Shown here: piece after piece, positions 3,720 through 31,049 of the stretch | Layout: each line of letters opens with the position of its first letter | Position numbering within the stretch: the first letter of the stretch is position 1 | Source of the DNA: a virus | DNA length: 31,049 nt | Direction: 5' to 3' (one strand) | IMG/VR virus record: IMGVR_UViG_3300025897_000045 | Coordinates: 1 to 31,049 of that record | Notes under the pieces: model-generated | The model's database searches: none | Told to the model about the DNA's origin: nothing | The model's input: only the letters and a program-made list of their open reading frames with translations | Program-made: the position numbers and the translations under genes

Positions 3720-3727
3720 TATTTATA
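3720..3727 (-). promoter_or_regulatory. Late promoter TATAAATA of gp16
   Basis: A perfect T4 late consensus on the minus strand, next to the gp4 stop and 24 bases before the gp16 ATG. No good Shine-Dalgarno is visible in the leader. Confidence 0.65.
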
Positions 3728-14450: not shown

Positions 14451-14879
14451 ATGGAAAAGATTATTTGTAGTGGAGCATTGTTCTACACCTTAGATACTCA
14501 TAGATTTTTGTTCTTACATAGAACTAAAGGTAAGCAAAACAACCTTTGGGGATTAGTTGGCGGAACAAATGAAGGTACTGAAACACCTTGGGAAAGTTTG
14601 AAAAGAGAAATATCCGAAGAAATAGGTACTGTCGAAATTAAAAAAACTATACCTTTAGAAACTTTTGTAAGTAACGATGATAAGTTCCAATTCCACACAT
14701 ATTTGTGCTTAGTAGATAACGAATTTATTCCTATACTAAACGATGAGCATGACGGATATGCTTGGGTATCTTTTACAAAATGGCCCAAACCGTTACATCA
14801 TGGACTGCGTAATACTTTACAAAATAAGACAAACCAACTTAAACTAGAAACAGTTTTTAAATTGATTGAATTACTATGA
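14451..14879 (+). CDS. NUDIX hydrolase
   Basis: 142 residues, the length of a single NUDIX domain. These enzymes cleave nucleoside diphosphates linked to another group (oxidised dNTPs, NADH, ADP-ribose, capped RNA and others). The NUDIX box Gx5Ex7REUxEExGU is complete: G-TNEGT-E, then seven residues, then REISEEIG. The upstream segment FLFLHRTKGKQNNLWGLVGG fits the fold. The substrate cannot be told from the sequence. It is the first gene of a coupled four-gene operon after gp15 and overlaps the next gene by ATGA. No clear ribosome site precedes the ATG; a weak late-box lies at leaderless distance. Confidence 0.9.
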   Translation: MEKIICSGALFYTLDTHRFLFLHRTKGKQNNLWGLVGGTNEGTETPWESLKREISEEIGTVEIKKTIPLETFVSNDDKFQFHTYLCLVDNEFIPILNDEHDGYAWVSFTKWPKPLHHGLRNTLQNKTNQLKLETVFKLIELL

Positions 14880-15454
14880 CGCAAGCAATGTTTTTAGAAA
14901 ATTTTGGTTTTTACAGAGAAAAAATACCGCAAAATTTGTATTATAATTTATGCAACGAATCTTCGAAATGTAATCAAATAGTTAATTCAGGGATAACTGA
15001 AAAAGGTGTTGCAAAACATTATAGACTAAAAGACACTGCACAAGAACTTAATCAATATATAATAACTCTTATTAAAAAATATGAAGTTGACTTTCCAGGT
15101 TTAGGAGAAATAGGCATATTGACAAAATCTTTGCCATATAGAATTGAAGAGCAATGGATAAACCATCAAAAGGCAGGCGAATTTATTCCTAATCATGTAC
15201 ATCAGGGTATCTACAGTTATAGTATATGGATTAAGATTCCTGAAATAAATGATAACAAGTATCAAGGTAATTTTGAATTCACATATACTAATGTAGTTGG
15301 AAATATTGTTCATAAAAGGTTTCAATTAACAAAAGAAAATGAAGGCGAAATAATATTTTTCCCCTCAAAGTTGCCCCACAACGTATATCCGTTTTTAAAC
15401 AGTAATGAAACAAGGATATCAGTAAGTGGCAATATAATATTGGATGCAGGATAA
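14876..15454 (+). CDS. 2OG-Fe(II) oxygenase-like protein (TIGR02466-like)
   Basis: 192 residues. Such enzymes use 2-oxoglutarate, O2 and Fe(II) to hydroxylate proteins or small molecules. Candidate iron ligands are His107/His109 in PNHVHQGIYSYSIW and His168 in IIFFPSKLPHNVYPF, with Arg180 in ETRISVSGNI as the 2OG-binding residue. This is the arrangement of the phage-common TIGR02466 group, where the usual HxD reads HxH. The N-terminal 90 residues are less conserved. It is coupled to the NUDIX gene (ATGA overlap) and to the cupin-like gene (TAATG). The substrate is unknown. Confidence 0.72.
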   Translation: MTQAMFLENFGFYREKIPQNLYYNLCNESSKCNQIVNSGITEKGVAKHYRLKDTAQELNQYIITLIKKYEVDFPGLGEIGILTKSLPYRIEEQWINHQKAGEFIPNHVHQGIYSYSIWIKIPEINDNKYQGNFEFTYTNVVGNIVHKRFQLTKENEGEIIFFPSKLPHNVYPFLNSNETRISVSGNIILDAG

Positions 15455-15807
15455 TGGATAAAAAAGATAATGTAAAACAAACTGACTACGGCTATGAAAT
15501 TACTTGGGTATCAGAAGAAACTTATGGCGGTAAAATTCTAGTGTTTGATAAAATAACCAAAACAGATTTTTGGTTTAACAGTAAAACTGAAAAATGTTGG
15601 TTTGTAAATAATGGCGAATTCCTGTTTAAATGGATAGATACTAGTACCGGTCAATTATTTGAAAAACAAGCCTCCGAAGGTACAACATTTATATCTAAGC
15701 CACTTATGCCTTGTGCAATTGAGTGTAGAATTGTTGGTAGTATTACTGAAGTCAACAACGGTAGTAACGACGATCACAATATTGTAATTAAAAAGGACAA
15801 CTATTAA
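15454..15807 (+). CDS. Cupin-like small protein lacking metal histidines
   Basis: 117 residues with a beta-rich pattern like the cupin domains of phage and sugar-isomerase relatives: GYEITWVSEETYGGKILVF, then a KTDFWFNSKTEKCWFVNNGEFLFKW strand pair, a G-rich turn and a final ITEVNNGSNDDHN strand. The positions where cupins normally carry metal-binding histidines are occupied by Phe, Asn or Ser, so if it is a cupin it is probably not a metalloenzyme and may bind a sugar or act structurally. The fold is my inference from the strand pattern. It is coupled on both sides by TAATG overlaps. Confidence 0.6.
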   Translation: MDKKDNVKQTDYGYEITWVSEETYGGKILVFDKITKTDFWFNSKTEKCWFVNNGEFLFKWIDTSTGQLFEKQASEGTTFISKPLMPCAIECRIVGSITEVNNGSNDDHNIVIKKDNY

Positions 15808-17693: not shown

Positions 17694-17701
17694 TATTTAT
17701 T
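17694..17701 (-). promoter_or_regulatory. Late promoter AATAAATA of the 538-residue fibre gene
   Basis: Minus-strand AATAAATA overlapping the stop codon of the upstream protease gene and 16 bases before the ATG, with AGAGG between them. Confidence 0.6.
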
Positions 17702-20621
17702 AATCTGGTACATATCCTGATGGACCTGCAACTGTCGGATCGCCTACGTCACCGTCTTGGAATATATTTCTAATTGTTGTCAACGAAGGCTTACTAATAA
17801 CAGGAGCAATATATGTATTATGTAATGCGTAACCTAATGGGTTATTTGTTTGTATACCAGACTGTGTACGCATATCGTCTGTCCATTCAGGAGCAAGGCT
17901 TCCACCATCCCATAGACTTGAGTATTCAAACATACCAAAGTTTAGTAGGAACAAATATTCCTTAGCCGCTACTTCAAATGCATCTCCATCAGTCTTCCAA
18001 GCGTTTCCGCCATATCCTGATGAATCCCATTTGCCTGCATCGTATGCTTCTTCCATAGCCGCATATAGTGGACCACTTGCCCAGTCTGCACTAATGTAGG
18101 AATACATCTTTAATGATACTGCGTCAAGACCGTGCATATGTAGTGTATGGAATACATGTTCAATTACTTCTTGTGCATCGTTGTCACCGTCGCCAGGTGG
18201 ATCACCGGTTGAATTTAGATACCATACCATATCGTTTTGTACAGTGGCGTTTAATAATGCTGTTAGATTCCAAAATATAATGCCGGCGTCTGTCAAAAAG
18301 TTTGTGCTATAGTCTGCACCAGCACCCCTTGCTACTCGTTGTAATGTTGGTCCTTGGGCTGCGTGATAAGTTCCTGCGTCACCACTTAGCGTTTTAATAA
18401 ATGTACGCTGTGATGCTTCGTTGATGCCTGCGCCATTTGGATCTGTAAACAATTCAAACATACGTGCTACCTTTTCAACAAAGGCATCAGGCACTGCTGT
18501 TTGGCCGCCGACAGTTCCTGCCGCCACAATTCTTACACCATTAACTGTAACTTCTCTACTAAAGAAATTACTTCCGTCGCCGGTAAGATCAATAATTGCA
18601 CCGTTGTTATATTCTGGATCTATTGCAGGTGATGCTACTTCTGCTGAAGTAAAGTTAGGGAAAATTCCCTGTAATTTAAGATTTGCTCCGTTTACTTCTA
18701 CAGGCTGTCTACCGTACTTGTCGAATAACACTTTGTTTGATGCCCCTAATAAACTTGTAGTAAAAGCAGCATAATCTGTGTCTGATGCAGTATCGTACAT
18801 TACTGGTTTAGCTTCGGCTAATAACTTTGTTTTTAATTGTGCTGGTGTACTGTTTGCATTTACTTGCAAATGTAGTGCGGCTACACCAGCAACTTGTGGT
18901 GATGCAAAACTTGTGCCAGACAATGATACAATTTTATAGGCAGCATCTACTGGACTATCTAGTGAAGTATAAATATTAGTAGTACTTGTTGCTCCTACAA
19001 TGTTGGTTCCAGGTGCCCATATGTTTACTCTAGGACCTTTTGAGCTTGATCCTTGTGTTCTGTCTTTGTAAATTCCGCCATCATCATAAACACTCGTACT
19101 AATATTACCTACGATAAAAGCATCGTCGCTATGCGGACTAGAACCTCTTCCATAATTAAAAGTTAAGCCTCCAAAAATTACAGTATTATTATAATCATCA
19201 CCGCCCGATATATTGTAAACATCACCTCTGGTTATTGTAAAGGTTTTGCCTGCCATGTCGTACGTATCTAAAGAACTGTAGACAAGTACTAAATCCCTAT
19301 AAAGTGTTCTTCCAGGACCTCCATAGTTTGCGTCTCCATTTAGCTGAAAAACAATAATTATATCATCATTTTCAAGTTTGATATAATCGCCGCCGACGCT
19401 GTTGTCTATTGAAATGCTACCTGGAACCAAAGGTACATTTAATTCGTCCTGATGAAAGTTTATTGCCCAAGTCAGTGAACTATTAAAAGTAGAAGTATAA
19501 ACGTAGCCACCTGGGGTATCGTATTGTATCCAAAAACCGGTGTCGCCTGCTCCCGATTGATTAACTTCTGTAGATGTAAATTGCCAGTATCTGTCACCGC
19601 CCGATACATCGCCTTTGTAATAATCATTTCCAGCAGCAATCGCAACATGCACTCCGGCGGCTATAAGTTCATCTACATCTGCATCTACAGAAGCAATCCT
19701 AGCAGGAATTTTTCTTGTAGTTCCTGCTAAAGGAATTACCACTCCAGTTCCTTGCCATAATGCTACGTCAGTAGTATAATCAACTCCCCAAACCCAACCT
19801 GTTCCTCTATATGTACCACTAGTAGGATCGCCAGTTACTGTACTTGAATATCCCCAACTCATATTTACAACAGTTGGCCGGCCATTTGTTTTTGCATTAT
19901 GCCATTCTTTTATAACATCAAAACAATCTGCTATAGGTGTTCCTGTTCCGGTATCCCCAGCACCTTCTAAACCTGCAATTTTCATAGAGTATATATGAGC
20001 GTCTTTAGCAAAACCGTATATATTTCCTGCTGTAATACTTGCACACAAAGTTCCATGTCCGTCAAAATCTCTGTTATAATTTGCGTTTTGTGTCCCACTT
20101 ACAACTGATTGTGCTGTATACCAGTCTATTGGTTTGACTCTGCTAATGCCATTGCTATCTATAAAATCAGGATGGTCTGGTTGTATACCGCTATCTTGAA
20201 TAACTATGTCTACGCCCTTACCTGTGAGTGCATAAGGAAATGTATTATCACTTGTATTTGAATTTTGGTAATTATTTTCTTCCATTATACTTCTACGTAA
20301 TCCCCAATTTACAAGACTGTTATCTGAAAATGTAACTGGTTTTGTAAAGTTAGCAGTTTGTGTAGAATTTAATCCTATTTGGATATCTGTTCGTTGGTCG
20401 GGAGGAATTTCAACAGCAAGCACCCTACTATCCGCTTCAAGAGCAGTTGCTTCTTCGTCTGTAAGCATAAAATGTGTTTGTCTTTTTGATCCAGGTCTTG
20501 GATTAGCTATATCGACACTCCTATTTGGAATAGGTCCGGCACCTGAACTTGCTGTAATTTCAGATTCTAATTCTACTAAATTTACACCTTTATGTACAAC
20601 TACTGTGTATTCTTTTTCCAT
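17700..20621 (-). CDS. Virion-associated subtilisin-like serine protease (S8)
   Basis: 973 residues. Residues about 1-75 resemble an I9-type propeptide (EYTVVVHKG..., FMLTDEEATALEADSRVLAVE). The S8 catalytic triad is readable: Asp143 in VIQDSGIQPDHPDF, His189 in DFDGHGTLCASITAG and Ser571 in LSGTSFASPQVAGVAALHL. The oxyanion Asn lies in VAIAAGND. About 200 extra residues with beta-rich, Tyr-rich sequence sit between the Asn and the Ser. The C-terminal about 250 residues are a separate domain with a His cluster in EHVFHTLHMHG. There is no signal peptide. It lies one base after one fibre-like gene and just before another, so a tail-tip role in surface digestion or self-processing is likely but inferred. 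Confidence 0.88.
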   Translation of the reverse strand: MEKEYTVVVHKGVNLVELESEITASSGAGPIPNRSVDIANPRPGSKRQTHFMLTDEEATALEADSRVLAVEIPPDQRTDIQIGLNSTQTANFTKPVTFSDNSLVNWGLRRSIMEENNYQNSNTSDNTFPYALTGKGVDIVIQDSGIQPDHPDFIDSNGISRVKPIDWYTAQSVVSGTQNANYNRDFDGHGTLCASITAGNIYGFAKDAHIYSMKIAGLEGAGDTGTGTPIADCFDVIKEWHNAKTNGRPTVVNMSWGYSSTVTGDPTSGTYRGTGWVWGVDYTTDVALWQGTGVVIPLAGTTRKIPARIASVDADVDELIAAGVHVAIAAGNDYYKGDVSGGDRYWQFTSTEVNQSGAGDTGFWIQYDTPGGYVYTSTFNSSLTWAINFHQDELNVPLVPGSISIDNSVGGDYIKLENDDIIIVFQLNGDANYGGPGRTLYRDLVLVYSSLDTYDMAGKTFTITRGDVYNISGGDDYNNTVIFGGLTFNYGRGSSPHSDDAFIVGNISTSVYDDGGIYKDRTQGSSSKGPRVNIWAPGTNIVGATSTTNIYTSLDSPVDAAYKIVSLSGTSFASPQVAGVAALHLQVNANSTPAQLKTKLLAEAKPVMYDTASDTDYAAFTTSLLGASNKVLFDKYGRQPVEVNGANLKLQGIFPNFTSAEVASPAIDPEYNNGAIIDLTGDGSNFFSREVTVNGVRIVAAGTVGGQTAVPDAFVEKVARMFELFTDPNGAGINEASQRTFIKTLSGDAGTYHAAQGPTLQRVARGAGADYSTNFLTDAGIIFWNLTALLNATVQNDMVWYLNSTGDPPGDGDNDAQEVIEHVFHTLHMHGLDAVSLKMYSYISADWASGPLYAAMEEAYDAGKWDSSGYGGNAWKTDGDAFEVAAKEYLFLLNFGMFEYSSLWDGGSLAPEWTDDMRTQSGIQTNNPLGYALHNTYIAPVISKPSLTTIRNIFQDGDVGDPTVAGPSGYVPD

Positions 20622-21961: not shown

Positions 21962-23656
21962 TTAGTACGTGTCGCCGTTACCTTGGTCGTATTGTGGTGG
22001 TAATACCTTTTCGCCTGCACTAGGTGACGGGCCAATGACAGTTATATCTTCTTCGTCATTGTCTTCGTAAATGGCGCAATCTGTAATTAAAAGCAAACCG
22101 GCAATACTTGCTGCATTCATAAGAGCTTTTTGTACAACAGTGATAGGATCAATAATACCAATATCAAACATATTTCCGTATTCGCCTGTAGCGGCATCAT
22201 AACCAAATTCGGCATCACCTTTGTTTACTTCATTTGCAACAACATCAGGGCTATCACCTGCATTTATAACAATTTGTCTTAGCGGCTCTTGTAATGCTTT
22301 GAGAACAACTTGTATACCTGCATCCTGTTCTGTATTTGCACCTTTGAGATCTTTGACTTTGTTCATTGCACGTATTAATGCAACTCCGCCACCTGGCACA
22401 ATACCATCTTTTAGGGCTGCTTTTGTAGCATGAAGAGCATCATCAATTCTGTCTTCTTTTTCGCGCAATTCAATTTTTGTTGCTGAGCCAACTCTAATAA
22501 TACTTACAGCACCAGTTAGATTACTAATACGCTTTTCTTGACCTTTGTCGGTAAAAACATCATCGCCTCTTGGAGCATTAATATAGTGTTTAATTTTTTC
22601 GTCAATATATTTTGCAATAGTGTCTTTGTTGCCGTGACCGCCAATAATAGTTACCTGGCTATCAGTAATTTCTACTCTATTTGCTACTCCACAATCATCT
22701 AATTCAGCACTTTCTACTTTTTTACCTGTTTGATCAGAAATTACATTTCCACCTGTTAGTACAGCAATATCTTCACAGTATTTTGTACGCATATTGCCTT
22801 TCCATTCTGGTGGTTTAACTGCACAACACTTAATAGATCCGTTTAAGTTGTTTATTACTAATGTAGCAAGTACATCTTGCTCTACTTCTTCGGCCATAAT
22901 TAAGAATGGACGTTTTGTTTCTACTAGTTTTTCTAATATAGGCAAAATATCATTCATGTTTAAGATTGGTCTGTCACAGATTAAAATCAACGGATTTTCT
23001 AAAATACACTTTTGCTTATCTGCATTAACAAATTGTGGAGATAAGTATCCGTGTTCATATTGGAATCCGTTTACATTAACAAGTTCGTCATAATAATTCA
23101 TACCCGGTTCAACTGATACTAATGCTTCGTGGGTTGCATTGTCGCCTCCAAGAGATTCGGTAATTAGTTTACCTAATTTAGGATCATTGTTGGTTGCAAT
23201 AGTCGCAACAGCTTCGGTTGATGCTCTATCTTTACAAACTTTTGCATCAGATGTTAATTCTTTCATTACTGCTTCTACAGCAAGATCCATACCTCTTTTT
23301 AAATTAATACCACTAATGCCTGCTGTTAGGAATTTATTGCCTTCATTAATCATTTTTTGGGCTAATAATGTTGCTGTGGTTGTTCCGTCTCCGATATCTT
23401 GAAATGTTTGTGTAGCCGCCTGCTTAATCATACGCACACCAGTATCTTCAAGTTTATCTTTTAACCAAATTTCTTTGGCAACAGTAACTCCGTCTTTTGT
23501 TACATGAGGTGGACCAAATGTTCTTTGACAAATTACGTTTCTGCCTTTTGGGCCAAGTGTTACCTTAACTGCATTTGCAAGAATGTTTACACCATCAATT
23601 ATCTTTTTACGTCCGGGTGCACCTTGGACAACTACTCTAGGAATTATTTTAGACAA
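21962..23656 (-). CDS. groEL: Phage chaperonin GroEL
   Basis: About 564 residues. It folds proteins in an ATP-driven ring with GroES. Signature segments are present: VTLGPKGRNVI, DGTTTATLLAQ (nucleotide binding), a CCAVKPPEWKGN segment in place of the usual AVKAPGFG, RIDDALHATKAA with the catalytic Asp, GIVPGGGVALIRA and YDAATGEYGNM. The Gly-Met tail of bacterial GroEL is absent; the end is QYDQGNGDTY. Start choice: an ATG at 23662 abuts the AAGGAG with no spacing, whereas the in-frame TTG at 23656 is six bases away and gives MSKIIPRVVVQG, so I prefer TTG. The gene overlaps groES by 8 bases (14 if ATG is used). T4-like phages normally supply only a GroES analogue (gp31), so a full pair is notable. 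Confidence 0.93.
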   Translation of the reverse strand: MSKIIPRVVVQGAPGRKKIIDGVNILANAVKVTLGPKGRNVICQRTFGPPHVTKDGVTVAKEIWLKDKLEDTGVRMIKQAATQTFQDIGDGTTTATLLAQKMINEGNKFLTAGISGINLKRGMDLAVEAVMKELTSDAKVCKDRASTEAVATIATNNDPKLGKLITESLGGDNATHEALVSVEPGMNYYDELVNVNGFQYEHGYLSPQFVNADKQKCILENPLILICDRPILNMNDILPILEKLVETKRPFLIMAEEVEQDVLATLVINNLNGSIKCCAVKPPEWKGNMRTKYCEDIAVLTGGNVISDQTGKKVESAELDDCGVANRVEITDSQVTIIGGHGNKDTIAKYIDEKIKHYINAPRGDDVFTDKGQEKRISNLTGAVSIIRVGSATKIELREKEDRIDDALHATKAALKDGIVPGGGVALIRAMNKVKDLKGANTEQDAGIQVVLKALQEPLRQIVINAGDSPDVVANEVNKGDAEFGYDAATGEYGNMFDIGIIDPITVVQKALMNAASIAGLLLITDCAIYEDNDEEDITVIGPSPSAGEKVLPPQYDQGNGDTY

Positions 23657-23954
23657 TATCATCTCCTTTTAATTTTCCAAGAATTTCATGTTCTTCTAAA
23701 ATTAAAAATTCTTCTCTGTTAATTTTAATTTGGTGTCCTGCATAGCGAGGGTAAACAATCATGTCTCCTGCTTGTACAACCATATCTAATAACTTACCGT
23801 CATTATTGATCTTCCCTGGTCCTACACTAATAACTTCACCTTTAGTAGGGCGTTCCTTAGTGTCATCAGAAAGAACAAGACCTGACTTTGTTTTATTTTC
23901 GTCTTCGACTTTTTTTACAAGAAGTCTATCTCGTATAGGTTCAAATACCTGCAT
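23649..23954 (-). CDS. groES: Phage co-chaperonin GroES
   Basis: 101 residues starting at the second of two consecutive ATG codons, which is six bases from AAGGAG; the first ATG at 23957 is three bases from it. Family features are FEPIRDRLLVKKVED, a mobile-loop segment TKSGLVLSDDTKERPTKGEV, SVGPGKINNDGK, and the C-terminal VYPRYAGHQIKINREEFLIL. It caps the GroEL ring and supplies folding chamber volume, probably for the major capsid protein as gp31 does in T4. It overlaps groEL, and a TATAAATA late promoter precedes it. Confidence 0.92.
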   Translation of the reverse strand: MQVFEPIRDRLLVKKVEDENKTKSGLVLSDDTKERPTKGEVISVGPGKINNDGKLLDMVVQAGDMIVYPRYAGHQIKINREEFLILEEHEILGKLKGDDIV

Positions 23955-23984
23955 CATCTTCTCCTTAGTAACGACATTGCATGG

Positions 23985-24024: not shown

Positions 24025-24465
24025 TTATGACGGCTTAGTTGGCCAATTAGGATCCCAAGGGAATCTAGTTTGTGATGGAACATCACGTAACGCTGTTCTA
24101 TATGTAGACCACTCTGATCTTTTACTAGCAGTCATTGCCGCAGATACATCAGGTAAACCAGAAAAATCTGATTCTAGTAATAGCTGGTTTCTAGTAGCTT
24201 TTACTTCTGCTTCTCGCTCAGCTTGGGTTTTTGGCTGTGTTCTATAGCCGTCTGTTCCGTGTGTTAATTCACCGTAGTCACCGTTTTGTAATTTTGTGTA
24301 AAGCTCTACTGAAAGAGGTTCATCTGAATCAGGTCTAGCAATGTATTCGCAGAAATTTTCACAATCTGTAAATCTTATTCTACACCAAACTTCTTCTACA
24401 CCCATCACATAACATGCATCTTGAACAGCAACTACATCGCTTGCGGGGACATTTTTAATAGCCAT
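24025..24465 (-). CDS. Tail-fibre assembly chaperone-like protein (XkdW/gp38-like end)
   Basis: 146 residues. The C-terminal half has the layout common to phage tail-assembly chaperones: AEREAEVKATRNQLLLESDF, then LPDVSAAMT, WSTYRTALRDVPSQ and a terminal FPWDPNWPTKP. These proteins help fibre proteins fold or trimerise and often sit beside fibre genes. The N-terminal half (WCRIRFTDCENFCEYIARPDSD) is a small beta-rich domain also seen in such proteins. It lies just upstream of groES and downstream of three oxygenase genes, with its own TATAAATA promoter and AAAGGAG site. Confidence 0.75.
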   Translation of the reverse strand: MAIKNVPASDVVAVQDACYVMGVEEVWCRIRFTDCENFCEYIARPDSDEPLSVELYTKLQNGDYGELTHGTDGYRTQPKTQAEREAEVKATRNQLLLESDFSGLPDVSAAMTASKRSEWSTYRTALRDVPSQTRFPWDPNWPTKPS

Positions 24466-24502: not shown

Positions 24503-25147
24503 CTAAAATTCTTTATAGCCTAATCTAGGACGCTTGTCATATACCCATTCGGGATAAAACGGTCCGTCTTTGTCTATATAATGGAAAAATCCTTGTATAT
24601 GATAACTATTTATTCCTGCTACAAAAGGATCTCTCCAATGTTCAATATCAACACCTCTATATATTAAAATATCGCCGGGCGACTGTTGTACTGGAATGCC
24701 TGGATTACCTGCACTTACAAAATTTCCGAGGACAGGAGTATTTACAGATTCTTTATCTACATACATGCTCCAATGATAATCTTCGTCCGTATCATTATAT
24801 TTAAAGTCGAAGCACACTGATGTGCTTATTTCGCAACTTTCTCTATCTTTATGCCTTTCAAGTTCCATTCCGGGCCTGTATACTCTATAATAACTGTAAG
24901 TAGGAGCTAGTCGTAGTCCGGTATTTAATTCCATGTAGGGTAGCAAGAAAAATTCTAACGTTTCCATTAGGGTATCACCATACACACTATGAGAAAATGG
25001 TACTTGACCGTCTGCTTCTTCAGGCGAATCTAATTTATTTTCTTCTCTCATCAAACAGTATTTAGATACTAGGTTGCATATGTCTTTAGGTACAACTGAT
25101 TTACAGTCGGCATATAGATTTTCTTTAAAATGATCTGGATTTGTCAT
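24503..25147 (-). CDS. 2OG-Fe(II) oxygenase (prolyl-hydroxylase-like)
   Basis: 214 residues. Iron ligands fit His99-x-Asp101 in MELERHKDRES and His170 in GDILIYRGVDIEHW, preceded by the PGD turn usual before the distal His. Residues 85-91 (YSYYRVY) form the strand before the HxD motif. The expected 2OG-binding Arg/Lys ten residues after the distal His is not obvious. The substrate is unknown; relatives hydroxylate proline or other protein residues. It is the last of three coupled oxygenase-fold genes (ATGA overlap with the upstream one) and is followed by the fibre chaperone. Confidence 0.8.
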   Translation of the reverse strand: MTNPDHFKENLYADCKSVVPKDICNLVSKYCLMREENKLDSPEEADGQVPFSHSVYGDTLMETLEFFLLPYMELNTGLRLAPTYSYYRVYRPGMELERHKDRESCEISTSVCFDFKYNDTDEDYHWSMYVDKESVNTPVLGNFVSAGNPGIPVQQSPGDILIYRGVDIEHWRDPFVAGINSYHIQGFFHYIDKDGPFYPEWVYDKRPRLGYKEF

Positions 25148-25932
25148 CTAAATGGGTATCCTAAGTTCCAGCCTACTAAGCTATACCTTGTACCTTTTGT
25201 GACCGGTGTTACTTGGTGGTAGACATGTGATGGAAATACTATAACACTGCCTTGTGGTCTAATTTCTGTGCATTCGTGAAATCTTTCATCGGCATGCGGT
25301 CCAAAATCAAATTTTAAATTTCCACCTTCGTATTCTTCAGGTTTATTTAAACTGATTGTGACACTTAGCTTTCTTACCTTACCAATTAAACTGGGATTAG
25401 AAGTTGCTAAATTATCCTCAGTCAAAGGATTACCAAATGTATCTAACATAGGAGTTCCATCAGGGTTAAGTTTCCACTTATCTTCTTGAGGTTTAAATTC
25501 ACGATAAGGTTTTGACCCCATATCAACATGCCATCCATAAAATTGTCCTGGGCCATACTTTGTAAATTGGAATTCTTCGGTATAATCCCAATCAAAATTC
25601 CAACCTGCTTGTTTGTTGGCTTCACCAACAAAAGATTGTACCATTTCAAATAGAGGTTTGTCGTCTAGCCATGTGATGTTTGAGTCTCTTACATACGCTT
25701 CGGTAGGATCTAATCCTTCTTGTTTTAATTCTTCTATAGATTTATCATTTACTGCTTTTTCGTAACCTTGAGACCCTTTGTGTTGCCAGCCACCTGTAGT
25801 AGCAACAGATACTTCTTTACCAAATTGCTCTTCTTGCAATTTCATTTTTGCAAGACCTTTTTGGATTATAGAATCACAGAGAGCAGGATCTATTGCTTTT
25901 TCAAAATACCAATAATCGTAATCTAATATCAA
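25144..25932 (-). CDS. 2OG-Fe(II) oxygenase (PKHD-hydroxylase-like)
   Basis: 262 residues. It has a complete active-site set: His135-x-Asp137 in FYGWHVDMG, a distal His239 in SVIVFPSHVYHQV and Arg249 in KGTRYSLVGW ten residues later. The intervening LSVTISLNKPEEYEGGNLKF is typical of the PKHD/PiuC type. An insert of about 45 residues (144-186) sits between the HxD motif and that strand. It overlaps its neighbours by ATGA on both sides. This is the intact member next to a degenerate paralogue. Confidence 0.87.
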   Translation of the reverse strand: MILDYDYWYFEKAIDPALCDSIIQKGLAKMKLQEEQFGKEVSVATTGGWQHKGSQGYEKAVNDKSIEELKQEGLDPTEAYVRDSNITWLDDKPLFEMVQSFVGEANKQAGWNFDWDYTEEFQFTKYGPGQFYGWHVDMGSKPYREFKPQEDKWKLNPDGTPMLDTFGNPLTEDNLATSNPSLIGKVRKLSVTISLNKPEEYEGGNLKFDFGPHADERFHECTEIRPQGSVIVFPSHVYHQVTPVTKGTRYSLVGWNLGYPFR

Positions 25933-26546
25933 CGGAAAACAGCCCCATGCACATGACCAACAATAAGTTTCTTTTCTCCTTTAGTAATTTTATCAATACT
26001 ATAGGGTATAAAAGATGGAAAAATTAAAATTGATCCTTTTGTGTTAGTATTTACTTCGTTAGTGTCAATATTTAAAAATGAAATATTTCCGCCTTCGTAT
26101 TCGTCTTCATCTGATAAATTTACCATCCAAGTAATTTTTCTTGTCGGTGCAAGAACATTTAAATCAATATGAGTTTTATAGTAACATTCTTCACTGTACC
26201 TGTAGACTTGCGGAAAATCTTGATCAATAATCCCTAATAGATCAAAATTGTAAATTTGATCGTTTGCAGCTTTTGTTATGTCTCTAATCTTATCGAAAGG
26301 AAACGCTGCAACATCTCCTCTTAACTTTTGTCTAAATCCTTTGTGCAAGTCATCGTTGCCCATAACTTTGATAGGCATCCAAAGTTCATCAATAGTATTT
26401 TCGCATATAGTTTTGACTTCTTCATCGTCAAACAGAGAATTAAAGTTTACTGAAGTAATCTGTAAACTTGCTTCTTGTTCTGGCTTATCTGATTCTGTGC
26501 GTTCCATAGCAGGCTGTGTAAATCCGTTTGAGTTTTCTGTGTTCAT
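25929..26546 (-). CDS. 2OG-Fe(II) oxygenase-fold protein with altered active site
   Basis: 205 residues. It aligns with the following gene over the C-terminal half: HxD is present (His126, Asp128 in YKTHIDLN), then ITWMVNLSDEDEYEGGNISF, but the distal His position in GSILIFPSFIPYSI is Tyr182 and the 2OG-binding Arg position is Lys192. It may be inactive, use a different metal set, or act as a partner of its paralogue. The N-terminal 30 residues are polar and probably disordered. It is first in the minus-strand oxygenase operon, with an ATTAAATA promoter and a GGAGGA ribosome site. Confidence 0.8.
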   Translation of the reverse strand: MNTENSNGFTQPAMERTESDKPEQEASLQITSVNFNSLFDDEEVKTICENTIDELWMPIKVMGNDDLHKGFRQKLRGDVAAFPFDKIRDITKAANDQIYNFDLLGIIDQDFPQVYRYSEECYYKTHIDLNVLAPTRKITWMVNLSDEDEYEGGNISFLNIDTNEVNTNTKGSILIFPSFIPYSIDKITKGEKKLIVGHVHGAVFR

Positions 26547-26592
26547 TTTTTCCTCCAGTTAGCATACACATTTACTTATCTACGTACATTAC

Positions 26593-26600
26593 TATTTAAT
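26593..26600 (-). promoter_or_regulatory. Late promoter ATTAAATA of the minus-strand oxygenase operon
   Basis: Minus-strand ATTAAATA followed by GTAATG, 46 bases before the ATG at 26546, with a GGAGGA ribosome site in between. Confidence 0.5.
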
Positions 26601-26641
26601 AATTTTTTGATTCGTATTTCTCATGCTATGTGCAAATTATC

Positions 26642-26649
26642 GTTAAATA
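26642..26649 (+). promoter_or_regulatory. Late promoter GTTAAATA of the halogenase operon, leaderless geometry
   Basis: GTTAAATA, then TATGT, then the ATG at 26655, the same five-base spacing as at gp14. It diverges from the minus-strand oxygenase promoter 41 bases away. Confidence 0.5.
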
Positions 26650-26654
26650 TATGT

Positions 26655-27260
26655 ATGATTTTACCAAAAGATACAACATATTCAGATGGTTTACTTAGCG
26701 ACCAACACAAAGCAATTATTGAAAATGATGTTTTAGGATTTCATTTTCCTTGGTACTATGTAGGTAAACAAACAACTTATATTCCGCCTGAAAATACTCC
26801 TGAAAAAATAAAACAAGGATCGTATGTGAATGGTCCTTTCTTAAGCCATTCACTTCTACGCAGAACTGAAGAAGAACATGTTAAACACACTGATAGGCCA
26901 ACTGAAGATTATAGTGACGGATATGCAGAATTCTTTTTTGAAATTTTTCATAACTGGATGAGACAAAATAATAAACCTTATCATAATATTTTTAGAGCTA
27001 ATGTAAATTGTAATTGGTATAATGGCGAAAGTGCTGTAACAGTACCTCACGAAGATCATACTTGGCATCATTATAATTGGTTACTATATTTGACAGATAA
27101 TCCAACAGCTCCTACATTAGTATGGAATGAGGAAATAAATGATTGGAACGAATTACCTGCACAAAAATGGCAAGTATCACAGTTCAAAGGTTGTTATCAT
27201 GCCCACAAATATCCAGCATTGCACGAAAGACGAGTGGTAGTGGTATTTACATATGCATAA
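26655..27260 (+). CDS. 2OG-Fe(II) oxygenase-like protein
   Basis: 201 residues from the ATG at 26655. An in-frame ATG at 26607 would add 16 residues running through the promoter box, so it is not preferred. Candidate ligands are His132-x-Asp134 in TVPHEDHTWHHYNW, the distal His182 in GCYHAHKY and Arg192, ten residues later, in HERRVVVVF. The strand WLLYLTDNPTAPTLVWNEE fits the double-stranded beta-helix. It is first in the four-gene operon that ends with two halogenases and overlaps the next gene by 8 bases. The substrate is unknown. Confidence 0.78.
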   Translation: MILPKDTTYSDGLLSDQHKAIIENDVLGFHFPWYYVGKQTTYIPPENTPEKIKQGSYVNGPFLSHSLLRRTEEEHVKHTDRPTEDYSDGYAEFFFEIFHNWMRQNNKPYHNIFRANVNCNWYNGESAVTVPHEDHTWHHYNWLLYLTDNPTAPTLVWNEEINDWNELPAQKWQVSQFKGCYHAHKYPALHERRVVVVFTYA

Positions 27261-27885
27261 TTTTAATGTTATTGATCAAACAATTATATTACATATGGAA
27301 AATGAAATTCCACAAGCTATGTGTGACAAAATAAGTAATCAAATTAAAATGTATAAAGACCAAACACTTAATGCAGATAAAAAAATGTTAAAAAATAGTC
27401 ATTTTGGATGCTGGAGGGGTAAACCTCATTTACATAATGGTTTTGATCAGCAAACACAACAGTACCTTGTAAATAAGATTTTAGAAGTTTCAAACCAATA
27501 CATGTCAGTTTTGCCTAAACCTAATAAACTAAATATTCAAGATGTAGAAATATCAACTCAGTGGAATGTAGATGCTTGGTTTAACATGAATGAAAAAGGT
27601 GCAGAAAACCGAGAACATGCACACACATCAAGTGCAAACTTAGTAAGCGGAGTTTTTTACTTTCAAGGCACAGGAACAGGAGTGATTGAATTTATCCCGC
27701 AACATTATATGCATCGAACAACACATGTTTCTTGGCCTTATCACGGCACTTCGTACTATGAACCAAATGATGGAGATATACTATTATTTCCAAGTTATTT
27801 AATACATAAAGTACATAATAATCCTATTGATAGACAAAGGATTAACATGGCTTTTAACTCCGGATTAGCAACAGAGGATTTTTAA
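27253..27885 (+). CDS. 2OG-Fe(II) oxygenase (TIGR02466 family)
   Basis: 210 residues. It has a strong TIGR02466 pattern: DAWFNMNEKGAENREHAHTS (His122/His124), SGVFYFQGTG, then GDILLFPSYLIHKVHNN with distal His185 and RQRINMAFN containing Arg194/196. The family is common in marine T4-like phages, but its substrate is not established. It is coupled upstream (8-base overlap) and downstream (TAATG) to the first halogenase, so both enzymes should be made together. Confidence 0.85.
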   Translation: MHNFNVIDQTIILHMENEIPQAMCDKISNQIKMYKDQTLNADKKMLKNSHFGCWRGKPHLHNGFDQQTQQYLVNKILEVSNQYMSVLPKPNKLNIQDVEISTQWNVDAWFNMNEKGAENREHAHTSSANLVSGVFYFQGTGTGVIEFIPQHYMHRTTHVSWPYHGTSYYEPNDGDILLFPSYLIHKVHNNPIDRQRINMAFNSGLATEDF

Positions 27886-29417
27886 TGAAGATTGTAATTG
27901 TAGGCGGTGGCACAGCAGGCTGGGTAACTGCAATAATTGCTAGTGCAAGACATAAAAATCACAATATTACTGTGATAGAAAGTAGTAAAATAGGTGTTGT
28001 CGGTGTTGGCGAAAGCACTACTGGGCACTTTACTGATGTATTAACTAATTGGGCATCAAACTTTGGATGTGATCAAAATGAATTTATAAAGGAAACAGGT
28101 GCAACTTTAAAATACGCTATAAAGCACAAGGGGTGGACTAATGATGTTGATGATTACTATATAGGACCTATTGATGGTACTACTACTGCTGGTGCAGTAC
28201 CCGATTGTATGTTTAATTACGGCTTGGATAAACTACAACGAAAAGAGTTATTAAATTTATCTAGATGCGGGCACTGGATTCATGATGGTAAAAGTAATTT
28301 TAACAAACATACTAACCAGTTTGCAAATAATCATCATGCATATCACATAGACGCTCATCTTGCTGGACAATATTTTAAAAAGGTTGTTCTACGTAGGCAC
28401 AATACTACCTATATAGATTCAGAAGTGTTAGATGTATTATTAAATGAACAAGGATTTGTTAAAAACTTAAAATTATCAAACGGAGAAATTGTTGACGGTG
28501 ATCTCTTTATTGATTGCTCTGGATTCAACAGGGTAATTATGAAGCACTTACCGAGTAAGTGGGTAAGTTACCAGGAGAATTTGCCTCTTAACACAGGTAT
28601 GCCGTTTCATTTAAAATATAAAGAAAATGAAACGCCCGAACCGTATACAACAGCTTGGGCACAAAAGGCTGGATGGATGTGGCAAATTCCCCTAATGGAT
28701 AGAAAAGGTTGTGGGTATGTATACTGTGATGCATACACTACTCCTGATAAAGCACAACAAGAAATTGAAACAATTCTAGGGCAACAAATTGATCCTATTA
28801 AAACAATTAAGTTTAATGCAGGTAGACAAGAATCAGCTTGGATTAAAAATTGTGTAACTATTGGTTTAAGTAGTGCGTTCTTAGAACCTCTTGAAGCAAC
28901 TAGTATTCACTCAACTATTGTACAAGCAAATAATTTATTCCTCGAGTATGTACAAAATACTATTGAAGATACCCTTAATCCAGGAAGTATTTCTATCTAC
29001 AACAAGCGTACTAGAAAACTATACGATGATGTAAGAGATTTTCTTGTATTACATTATATGGGCGGTAGAAAAGATAGTGAATTTTGGAAATATATTAATT
29101 CTGGTGTCACACAAACTGAATTTGTTAAAGAATTACTTGCAATGACAAAAAATAGAACACCAACTGTAAATGATTTTCCGCACTATCAAGGCAGTGCCGG
29201 ATGGCCTTTGTATAGCTATGTTATGGAAGGCATAAATTTACTAGATAAAACAAAAGCAGGCAAAGAAATAGACTTTGATATGGAAGGGGGGTATAATCTT
29301 TATGAGTTAACACAAGACAGTTTTTATCATCAAAAAAACATGTGGCGTGATGAAGATCAATATACATACAGTTACAAAGAATTTATTGATTATTTTAGAG
29401 GGTTAAGAAATATATGA
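27885..29417 (+). CDS. Flavin-dependent halogenase (tryptophan-halogenase type), copy 1
   Basis: 510 residues, the usual length. It uses FADH2, O2 and halide to halogenate an electron-rich substrate. An FAD-binding GGGTAGW sits at residues 7-13, with VGVGEST at 39-45. The catalytic Lys80 is in YAIKHKGW. The signature WxWxIP is intact at 264-269 (WMWQIP), and Glu334 lies in SSAFLEPLEATS. The halide and substrate cannot be told. A cyanophage enzyme of this family (VirX1 from Syn10) has been characterised and prefers iodide. No flavin reductase gene is in the window, so reduced flavin must come from the host or another locus. It overlaps the second copy by ATGA. Confidence 0.92.
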   Translation: MKIVIVGGGTAGWVTAIIASARHKNHNITVIESSKIGVVGVGESTTGHFTDVLTNWASNFGCDQNEFIKETGATLKYAIKHKGWTNDVDDYYIGPIDGTTTAGAVPDCMFNYGLDKLQRKELLNLSRCGHWIHDGKSNFNKHTNQFANNHHAYHIDAHLAGQYFKKVVLRRHNTTYIDSEVLDVLLNEQGFVKNLKLSNGEIVDGDLFIDCSGFNRVIMKHLPSKWVSYQENLPLNTGMPFHLKYKENETPEPYTTAWAQKAGWMWQIPLMDRKGCGYVYCDAYTTPDKAQQEIETILGQQIDPIKTIKFNAGRQESAWIKNCVTIGLSSAFLEPLEATSIHSTIVQANNLFLEYVQNTIEDTLNPGSISIYNKRTRKLYDDVRDFLVLHYMGGRKDSEFWKYINSGVTQTEFVKELLAMTKNRTPTVNDFPHYQGSAGWPLYSYVMEGINLLDKTKAGKEIDFDMEGGYNLYELTQDSFYHQKNMWRDEDQYTYSYKEFIDYFRGLRNI

Positions 29418-30919
29418 ACATTGTTATTGTCGGAGGCGGGACAAGTGGTTGGACAACTGCCTTAATTTTAGCAAATGAGCATCCGCAACACCATTTCACA
29501 GTTATCGAATCAAGTAAAATTGGAATAATTGGTGTTGGAGAGAGTACAACTGGTTACTTTACAAATCTATTTGATGGTAGATATGGACTACATCTAAAAG
29601 AGTTTATGTTAGCAACTAACGCTACTCCTAAGTATGCAATTAAACATCAAAATTGGTCCAATAATGTTACTGATTACTATGTTGCACCTATTGACGGAAG
29701 TTACACTAGTGGACTTGACCAGGATTTGTTTTTCTCCTGGGGTATAAACTTTCTTGAAAGGAAAGAATTACCTACTGTTAGTAGACTAGGTAATTTTTTG
29801 CAAAAAGGTTATACATCTTTCCATAAACAAGACAAAGATTTCATAGATTTTAATTTTGCTCTGCATATTGATGGACAGAAAACAAGTCAATATCTAAAAA
29901 CACATGTGTTAAAATTACAAAATGTAGACTTAATAGACACAGAAGTAACTAAAGTAATATTAGATGAAAAAGGTTTTATAAAAAGTCTTGATTTAGCGAA
30001 CGATAACAATTTAAAAGGTGATTTTTTTATAGACTGTAGTGGATTTAAAAAGGTTCTTATAGGAGAATTAGAAAAAGATAACTGGATCAGTTATAAAAAA
30101 TATTTGCCTGTAGATACTGCAATACCATTTTTTACCTATTATGAAGAAAACGAAATTCCAGAAATGTATACAACAGCCTGGGCACAAAACAACGGATGGG
30201 TATGGCGAGGTCCACTAGCTCACAGAAGAGGAAACGGATATGTGTTTAGTAGTGATTTTTCTACTGTAGATGATGCTATAACCGAAGTTGAAAAGGTATA
30301 CGGTCACAAAATAGAACCTATTAAAATTGTAAAGTTTGATGCTGGTAGATTAAAACAATCTTGGATTAAGAATTGTTTTGCAAATGGATTAAGTAGTCAA
30401 TTTTTAGAGCCAATGGAAGCTACAGCTATCCATCATACTGTAGTTCAAACACAAATATTAAGCAAACAATTTTTAAAAAATACATTAGTAGACACTTGTA
30501 ACGAACACTCGCAAAAAATCTATAATGAAACTAACGGAAAGGCGGTTGACGATTATATGAATTTCTTGAATATTCATTACATGGGTGGTAGAATTGATAC
30601 TGATTTTTGGAAATATATAAAAAATGAATGCTGTACAGAATTTAACAAAACTTTAATTGAAAGCGCAAAGTCAAGGGTTCCTAGCAGATATGATTTTCCT
30701 ACCTATTACGGTAGCGGTGGCGGTCCTTTGTACAGTCATGTTATGTATGGACTAGGCTTACTAGATAAAGATGTTGCATTTTATGACATTAATAGAACAT
30801 ATAAAATGCAAGACATAAAAAACAATCTATTAGATTTACAAGATGAATGGATCAACTACATGTCATATTGTATGACTAGTGAAGAATTTCATAATTACAG
30901 ATTAAAAATTAAAACTTAG
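29414..30919 (+). CDS. Flavin-dependent halogenase, copy 2 with altered WxWxIP motif
   Basis: 501 residues, clearly a tandem paralogue of copy 1 along its whole length (GGGTSGWTTA, VGESTTGYF, YAIKHQNW with Lys77, SSQFLEPMEATAIHH, YMGGRIDTDFWKYI). The halogenase signature reads WVWRGP at residues 262-267, so the Ile of WxWxIP is Gly and an Arg is added before it. This may change the tunnel between flavin and substrate, or substrate choice. It is last in the operon. Its 3' end overlaps the convergent right-edge oxygenase by 18 bases. Confidence 0.9.
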   Translation: MNIVIVGGGTSGWTTALILANEHPQHHFTVIESSKIGIIGVGESTTGYFTNLFDGRYGLHLKEFMLATNATPKYAIKHQNWSNNVTDYYVAPIDGSYTSGLDQDLFFSWGINFLERKELPTVSRLGNFLQKGYTSFHKQDKDFIDFNFALHIDGQKTSQYLKTHVLKLQNVDLIDTEVTKVILDEKGFIKSLDLANDNNLKGDFFIDCSGFKKVLIGELEKDNWISYKKYLPVDTAIPFFTYYEENEIPEMYTTAWAQNNGWVWRGPLAHRRGNGYVFSSDFSTVDDAITEVEKVYGHKIEPIKIVKFDAGRLKQSWIKNCFANGLSSQFLEPMEATAIHHTVVQTQILSKQFLKNTLVDTCNEHSQKIYNETNGKAVDDYMNFLNIHYMGGRIDTDFWKYIKNECCTEFNKTLIESAKSRVPSRYDFPTYYGSGGGPLYSHVMYGLGLLDKDVAFYDINRTYKMQDIKNNLLDLQDEWINYMSYCMTSEEFHNYRLKIKT

Positions 30920-31049
30920 TGATATTCTTCCATCACTTTCGTCTTCAGTAACATTTTGCTCTACATAGTGGCTTACGTGACTAGGGAATAGTACTAGCAT
31001 ACCTTCTACAGGATAATACCAATGTGTATTATTAGTTTCTGGGTTATCA
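30902..31049 (-). CDS. 2OG-Fe(II) oxygenase C-terminus, 5' part outside window
   Basis: The last 48 codons of a minus-strand gene that enters from the right edge. It reads WYYPVEGMLVLFPSHVSHYV then a turn and DGRISLSFNF. This is the typical TIGR02466 ending, with the distal His in FPSHVSHYV and the 2OG-binding Arg in GRISLSFN. The HxH/HxD part lies outside. The TAA stop overlaps the end of the second halogenase gene. It adds one more oxygenase to the cassette. Confidence 0.8.
   Translation of the reverse strand, partial: DNPETNNTHWYYPVEGMLVLFPSHVSHYVEQNVTEDESDGRISLSFNF

Follow-up and report, generated by a model that had tools for sequence, protein, structure and literature searches.

We analyzed a 31,049-base virus record from IMG/VR (IMGVR_UViG_3300025897_000045, classed as linear), referred to here as the window, with all positions counted over the whole stretch. 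The window carries T4-like late genes and belongs to a marine, T4-like phage, and its sheath gene is about 39% identical to the sheath genes of the Kyanoviridae pelagiphages HTVC008M and Mosig. The region from 24503 to 31049 contains two intact PF04820 halogenase genes and six oxygenase-type genes. In relatives the block runs on past the right edge of the window, and in two of them it is followed by glycine-rich fibre genes. We propose that this region forms the left-hand portion of a virion-tailoring cassette of ~15 kb whose products would hydroxylate or halogenate side chains at the fibre tip, a reading to which we assign a probability of about 0.5 and for which the location of the genes is the main evidence.

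Cyanophages are reported to have prnA halogenases, in up to two copies, and several 2-oxoglutarate (2OG) oxygenases (PMC3037559; PMC2984593), with a count of 20 of 153 genomes in one survey (PMC10452541). The roles discussed for phage prnA and 2OG genes are auxiliary metabolism, antibiotic protection and 2OG modulation (PMC3037559, PMC2984593, PMC10452541); the marine-phage halogenases and 2OG oxygenases have been auxiliary genes of uncertain role since 2010. We found no paper on phage halogenases or oxygenases modifying virion or fibre proteins, most subscription journals being outside the literature searched. The gene order described here offers one answer for the halogenases and oxygenases alike, namely action on the adjoining fibre products.

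Gene order in the window and in relatives

From 24503 to the right edge the genes are OxA (24503..25147), OxB (25144..25932) and OxC (25929..26546) on the minus strand, followed by OxD (26655..27260), OxE (27253..27885), Hal1 (27885..29417) and Hal2 (29414..30919) on the plus strand, and by the C-terminal end of OxF (30902..31049) on the minus strand, where the gene is cut by the window edge. This is the layout described in an earlier note on this DNA. The fibre-assembly chaperone that the note placed next to the cassette is likewise present, as the tail (fibre) assembly chaperone TFA at 24025..24465 on the minus strand (PF16778, E=1.5e-14; phrog_8716/4912 tail fibre assembly; syntenic in relatives). 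Most neighboring cassette genes overlap by a few bases, also as described: the junctions are ATGA at OxB/OxA (a 4-nt overlap) and at Hal1/Hal2, and TAATG at OxE/Hal1, to which we add TTGA at OxC/OxB and an 8-nt overlap at OxD/OxE. Hal2 and OxF are convergent and overlap by 18 nt. OxB begins with TTG; the start of OxD is probably at 26655 and not at the listed TTG at 26607.

The co-conservation test suggested in the earlier note was run, and the cassette genes are conserved together and in order among relatives. G003 (76.6 kb; L039, L040) is collinear with the window and carries five halogenase genes and, within the same ~15 kb, 11 genes of the oxygenase type, in the order OxA-OxB-OxC, OxD-OxE-Hal1-Hal2, OxF, Hal3, five oxygenase-type genes, Hal4, a phrog_17480 gene and Hal5. 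The five genes from Hal3 to Hal4 comprise one weak DUF6445 match, two PF13759 proteins and two OxD-like proteins, and the full-length homolog of OxF lies at L040:8423-9070 (PF13759, E=1.4e-19). The G003 cassette is followed by three glycine-rich fibre genes matching PF21722. G004 has the same whole ordered set and three glycine-rich fibre genes, mostly at 72-82% nucleotide identity to G003 (~75%). For the window, the equivalent position of a glycine-rich fibre gene at the end of the block would lie past the right edge. The nearest relatives of the window (L009, L011 and L014) also carry five halogenases, suggesting that the window probably holds less than half of the set. OxE was not found in L015 and L016, and Hal2 is missing in L015. 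The five-halogenase cassette has more halogenases than any cultured phage examined here.

Fibre genes beside halogenases and oxygenases in other phages

We compared the positions of the two enzyme families in 18 genomes carrying both. Of 123 oxygenase hits, 51 had a halogenase no more than 5 kb away; the expectation by rotation was 17.4, and 0 of 5000 rotations reached 51. In 8 of the 9 genomes that contain both PF21722 and halogenase genes, members of the two families are no more than ~9 kb apart (combined rotation p 0.011), P-SSM2 being the exception. After grouping at 70% clustering, and counting only groups with enough flank, 15 of 41 OxA clusters had a glycine-rich open reading frame (ORF) within 8 kb; with background rates assumed at 8% and 14%, which we estimated ourselves from 21 PF21722 hits in 20 genomes, the binomial p is 3e-7 and 3e-4, respectively. 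Many of the loci are related, so that these neighborhood statistics overstate independence.

The same arrangement recurs in individual phages. S-RIM44 has a long tail fibre gene, three glycine-rich genes, a gene for a 153-aa protein, two halogenases, oxygenases, OxA and neck genes in that order, and the layout in syn9 is similar, with glycine-rich fibre genes, two tandem halogenases and oxygenases including OxA. In the 53-kb pelagiphage HTVC033P, glycine-rich, chaperone-like and again glycine-rich genes are followed by OxB, a PF13759-like gene, a small ORF and OxA, all on one strand. Many podovirus-like contigs carry, on one strand, three glycine-rich genes, a chaperone-like gene, an unknown gene, OxB, PF13759 and OxA; in one of them (L156) a halogenase is inserted between OxB and PF13759. 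Phage 023Pt_psg01 has fibre genes, a chaperone-like gene, OxB, PF13759 and OxA on one strand. Mosig and S-TIM4 have an oxygenase set and a glycine-rich gene, and no halogenase was found in Mosig. In an evolution experiment with S-TIM4, mutations arose in fibre genes and also in a 2OG gene, ORF23 (PMC6224464), a result that we take as suggestive at most.

The earlier note had put forward tailoring of the virion as a hypothesis, and the part of it that gains from these comparisons is the link to fibres: in other phage types glycine-rich fibre and chaperone genes precede the oxygenases on one strand, and halogenases cluster with the oxygenases. We also examined the amino acid composition of the glycine-rich part at 42 loci with glycine-rich fibre ORFs. 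Among the 20 residues tested, His and Trp were more frequent where more halogenases lay nearby (Spearman 0.70 and 0.64), a signal that is exploratory and confounded because the halogenase-free loci belong mostly to one lineage.

Active sites, selection and allele exchange

The description of the block as six 2OG-Fe(II) oxygenases and two tandem halogenases holds for the halogenases but is too strong for the oxygenases. Among the oxygenase-type proteins of the window, the HxD...H iron triad is kept only in OxA, OxB and OxD. The Pfam cut-offs for oxygenases were passed by OxB (PF13640, E=1.5e-14), OxC (PF13640, E=2.3e-8) and OxE (PF13759, E=1.3e-14), and OxA and OxD had no Pfam match. OxA matches phrog_2954 (E=2.8e-38) and has an HKD...HWR motif, with H99, D101 and H170 present in 117 of 117 relatives. 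OxB, a PKHD/P4H-like protein (HVD...H...R), keeps the H, D, H and R in 69-70 of 70 aligned sequences, and its PDB matches are the PKHD-type hydroxylases 3dkq and PiuC. OxD, a member of phrog_274 (HED...H...R), has H132, D134, H182 and R193 invariant in 43 of 43 sequences. A single-sequence AlphaFold model of OxD was unusable (pLDDT 35.5), and the 43-row alignment was used instead, giving a model with pLDDT 94.7 whose best PDB matches by Foldseek are PHD2 and other prolyl hydroxylases (E 3e-6). OxD thus resembles protein prolyl hydroxylases and OxB resembles PKHD hydroxylases.

OxC is a degenerate OxB-like protein (HID...Y) in which the distal His is replaced by Tyr, Phe or Trp in all cassette orthologs shown. 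It is nevertheless under purifying selection (dN/dS ~0.1-0.3), so that it is a probable pseudo-oxygenase or partner subunit. The PF13759 members, of the OxE, OxF and OxG type, show HxH together with a distal His in almost every one of 243 rows (HxH...H...R in OxE), like the solved but uncharacterized proteins 2rg4 and 3bvc. An Arg or Lys for 2OG binding lies about ten residues past the distal His in OxB, OxD and about 200 of the 243 PF13759 rows, is mostly Lys in OxC, and was not located in OxA.

The oxygenases might alternatively serve 2OG and nitrogen signalling through NtcA, or nucleic-acid repair, with their clustering incidental. Such a role was proposed for cyanophages in 2010 (PMC3037559). 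Simply consuming 2OG would not call for so many different conserved active sites, however, and on the side of repair the proteins showed no AlkB-type Pfam match, OxD is PHD2-like and no DNA-modification gene was recognized in the cassette. We consider these roles highly improbable.

Some PHROG names sit on proteins with the oxygenase motif: 'ferrochelatase' (phrog_2954), 'DNA endonuclease V' (phrog_274) and 'minor coat protein' (phrog_1644). We rejected OxA as a ferrochelatase, since it had no Pfam match at 0.1 and carries the HxD...H motif instead, and OxD as DNA endonuclease V, since it had no Pfam match and its model matches PHD2. Correcting the phrog_2954 and phrog_274 names uncovers a fibre-linked pattern that they had hidden. 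Homologs of OxA also occur in bacterial assemblies. In a Chitinophagales metagenome-assembled genome (L212) one is followed, after a few intervening genes, by a tandem array of five genes resembling those for phage tail-collar proteins, and some contigs of such genomes with bacterial OxA relatives look like phages; no clear gene context was found for the Lysobacter homologs.

Hal1 and Hal2 scored 331.9 and 300.8 bits against PF04820 (E=8.7e-99 and 2.3e-89; cut-off 21) with most of the profile covered. Both have the GGGTxGW FAD motif (GGGTAGW in Hal1). In an alignment of Hal1 with 15 others, K76 is invariant and E337 nearly invariant over the 16 sequences, and Hal2 keeps the Lys and Glu. The WxWxIP motif is conserved in Hal1 (WMWQIP) and deviates in Hal2 (WVWRGP), which is without the Ile. 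The PDB matches of Hal1 are flavin-dependent halogenases including VirX1, which is, to our knowledge, the only characterized viral halogenase. The syn9 protein gp42 matches VirX1 at every residue but the first, which places the characterized enzyme in a fibre-linked cluster of this kind. VirX1 is reported to be the first viral halogenase characterized, with a large open active site and a preference for iodide (PMC8407142).

Two divergent halogenase-like ORFs, at L021:7169-8377 and G020:C1:38419-39462 (the contig of L053), have weak split PF04820 matches and long branches and are perhaps altered enzymes. The phrog_17480 protein between Hal4 and Hal5 (242 aa; L040:1677-2405, minus strand) belongs to a family that recurs beside phage halogenases and has no Pfam match.

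Each cassette gene tested (OxA-OxE, Hal1 and Hal2) had dN/dS values against relatives of mostly 0.05-0.2, close to those obtained for the GroEL gene (0.02-0.18). In a 101-row tree, the Hal1-Hal5 sequences of the relatives fell into five deep clades, one for each gene, among which those of Hal1 and Hal2 were the closest pair, indicating old, non-redundant paralogs. Their side-by-side retention suggests that they may act on different substrates or sites.

Halogenase genes move between diverged phages as gene-sized alleles. The window is 95-99% identical to L009 over all tested genes except Hal2 (70%), and 71-79% identical to L014 except for Hal2 (99% nt), so that Hal2 is a recently exchanged allele. 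The last 130 nt of the window, in OxF, return to 98% identity with L009. A swap of the same kind separates G003 and G004, in which Hal1 (97%), Hal2 (99%) and OxF (92%) stand out from the ~75% background. We considered an assembly chimera as the source of the odd Hal2 and judged it unlikely, because the identity is L009-like again past Hal2 and because the G003/G004 swap is independent.

The exchange of alleles bears on two other explanations. The enzymes could act on the host surface, envelope or defence proteins, or on other virion proteins such as sheath and head, one conceivable purpose being to block superinfection. The swapping of halogenase alleles as whole genes resembles an arms race, and protein-hydroxylase-like folds would suit any protein substrate. 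The recurrent neighbors, however, are fibre and chaperone genes and not recognized defence or superinfection genes, and we regard this alternative as distinctly unlikely. The block could also be a plain gene hotspot, in which laterally moving, unrelated genes gather in the late structural region with no common role. Cyanophage hotspots have been described (PMC3037559), OxE and Hal2 can be absent and alleles swap; yet the block consists mainly of two enzyme classes whose order is unchanged between genomes that have diverged by ~25%, and unrelated types of phage show the same partners again, making this explanation very unlikely.

Other genes of the window lie outside the block. OxG (14876..15454, plus strand) had been listed as a further oxygenase; it is present as a PF13759 protein (E=8.1e-11) with HxH in place of the HxD triad. 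It lies between NUDIX and cupin-like genes and is syntenic in L026, L030, L032 and L033. The cupin-like gene (15454-15807, plus strand) overlaps it by one base and matches phrog_7851 'cysteine dioxygenase'. A 973-aa subtilase at 17700-20621 on the minus strand (PF00082, E=3e-28) lies between two fibre-like genes and is possibly a virion-associated or fibre-processing protease. GroEL and GroES genes (PF00118, PF00166) occupy 21962-23957 on the minus strand beside the tail chaperone; the GroEL gene is opposite in strand relative to the chaperone in L021, L034, L035 and L049-L051.

Proposed function and comparison with known systems

We propose that tail-fibre proteins would be made and then folded by the phage's own chaperones, and that OxA, OxB, OxD and the HxH-type OxE and OxF would hydroxylate particular fibre side chains during or before assembly. 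Hal1 and Hal2, together with Hal3-Hal5 in relatives, would halogenate fibre side chains with reduced flavin presumably supplied by the host, and OxC would probably be a non-catalytic partner of OxB. The likeliest targets would be exposed loops of the glycine-rich tip proteins, and the chemical change could affect the interaction of the tip with the host surface, or how stable the tip is in seawater. A wider claim, that the tips of several tailed phage types are decorated with hydroxyls and halogens (bromine or iodine from seawater) by up to five halogenases and up to 11 oxygenase-type proteins, is tentative and somewhat doubtful. If true, post-translational protein halogenation would be a step of virion maturation and a changeable layer of host recognition, and VirX1 would be a protein-tailoring enzyme with the fibre tip as its native substrate.

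Several points weigh against the fibre-tailoring hypothesis. Gene neighborhoods in related phages are not independent samples, and plastic regions near fibre genes gather unrelated genes. The earlier note had argued from late-type promoters at the start of both operons, an argument that fails. The exact late-type site TATAAATA was not found in the divergent gap (26547-26654), and near-matches were not enriched (90 observed compared to 103 expected in shuffles); exact copies of TATAAATA occur in the window only at 3720 (minus), 18968 (plus), 23985 (minus) and 24489 (minus), the last two preceding GroES and the tail chaperone, respectively. OxC looks catalytically dead, and the three-histidine site of the PF13759 proteins makes a 2OG reaction not certain, so that their assignment as 2OG oxygenases is unproven. 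A test on G003 and G004 gave no sign that halogenase alleles are exchanged together with those of the glycine-rich fibre genes, which are 79-85% identical (nt) in this pair despite the swap of Hal1 and Hal2 (97-99%); the two kinds of allele do not travel together. Two halogenase-bearing podovirus-like loci are almost without Trp, and the Trp trend exists only across lineages. In P-SSM2 the halogenase lies 57 kb from the glycine-rich genes.

This last arrangement would also fit small-molecule chemistry, in which free tryptophan, indoles or another host metabolite is hydroxylated and halogenated during infection, for instance as an inhibitor or for metabolic diversion, and the proximity to fibre genes comes from chance or a plastic region. 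Single halogenases also stand away from oxygenases, as in S-PM2, and the best-known PF04820 enzymes among the PDB matches act on free tryptophan. An antibiotic role of phage PrnA (PMC2984593) and halogenation of host metabolites (PMC10452541) have been discussed. The cassette genes included no recognizable flavin reductase, carrier protein, ligase or transporter, however, and small-molecule chemistry leaves unexplained both the halogenase-free oxygenase sets directly after fibre genes and the five deep halogenase paralogs. Our analysis found no specific supporting evidence for it or for superinfection defence, the two alternatives named in the earlier note, and we consider small-molecule chemistry unlikely.

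The tandem halogenases and the OxA, OxD and PF13759 genes form one block in the window, as in clusters of the syn9 and S-RIM44 type, and these Synechococcus phages are the closest precedents for the cassette. The cluster of syn9 (gp41-gp54) and Cyanophage Syn10 likewise has two tandem halogenases, then about ten oxygenase-type genes including OxA- and OxD-type genes, and comes directly after fibre genes and glycine-rich genes named 'tail fibre assembly'. The window proteins are just ~28-36% identical to their syn9 and Syn10 counterparts, and the window differs by its three divergent oxygenase genes and by GroEL/ES beside the set, as do its relatives by their five halogenases. S-RIM44 gp157-gp169 shares the glycine-rich genes, tandem halogenases, oxygenases, a 'ferrochelatase' OxA and neck genes on one strand, but has two halogenases in the cluster (a third is elsewhere), a single operon direction and distant sequences. 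HTVC008M, Mosig EXVC030M and HTVC033P also have OxA/OxB/PF13759 clusters beside glycine-rich fibre genes, but these clusters contain at most one halogenase and a smaller number of oxygenase-type genes. Tryptophan halogenases of the PrnA/RebH type share the PF04820 profile, the FAD motif and the catalytic Lys and Glu with the window enzymes; Hal2 differs from them by lacking the Ile of WxWxIP, and no biosynthetic cluster was recognized.

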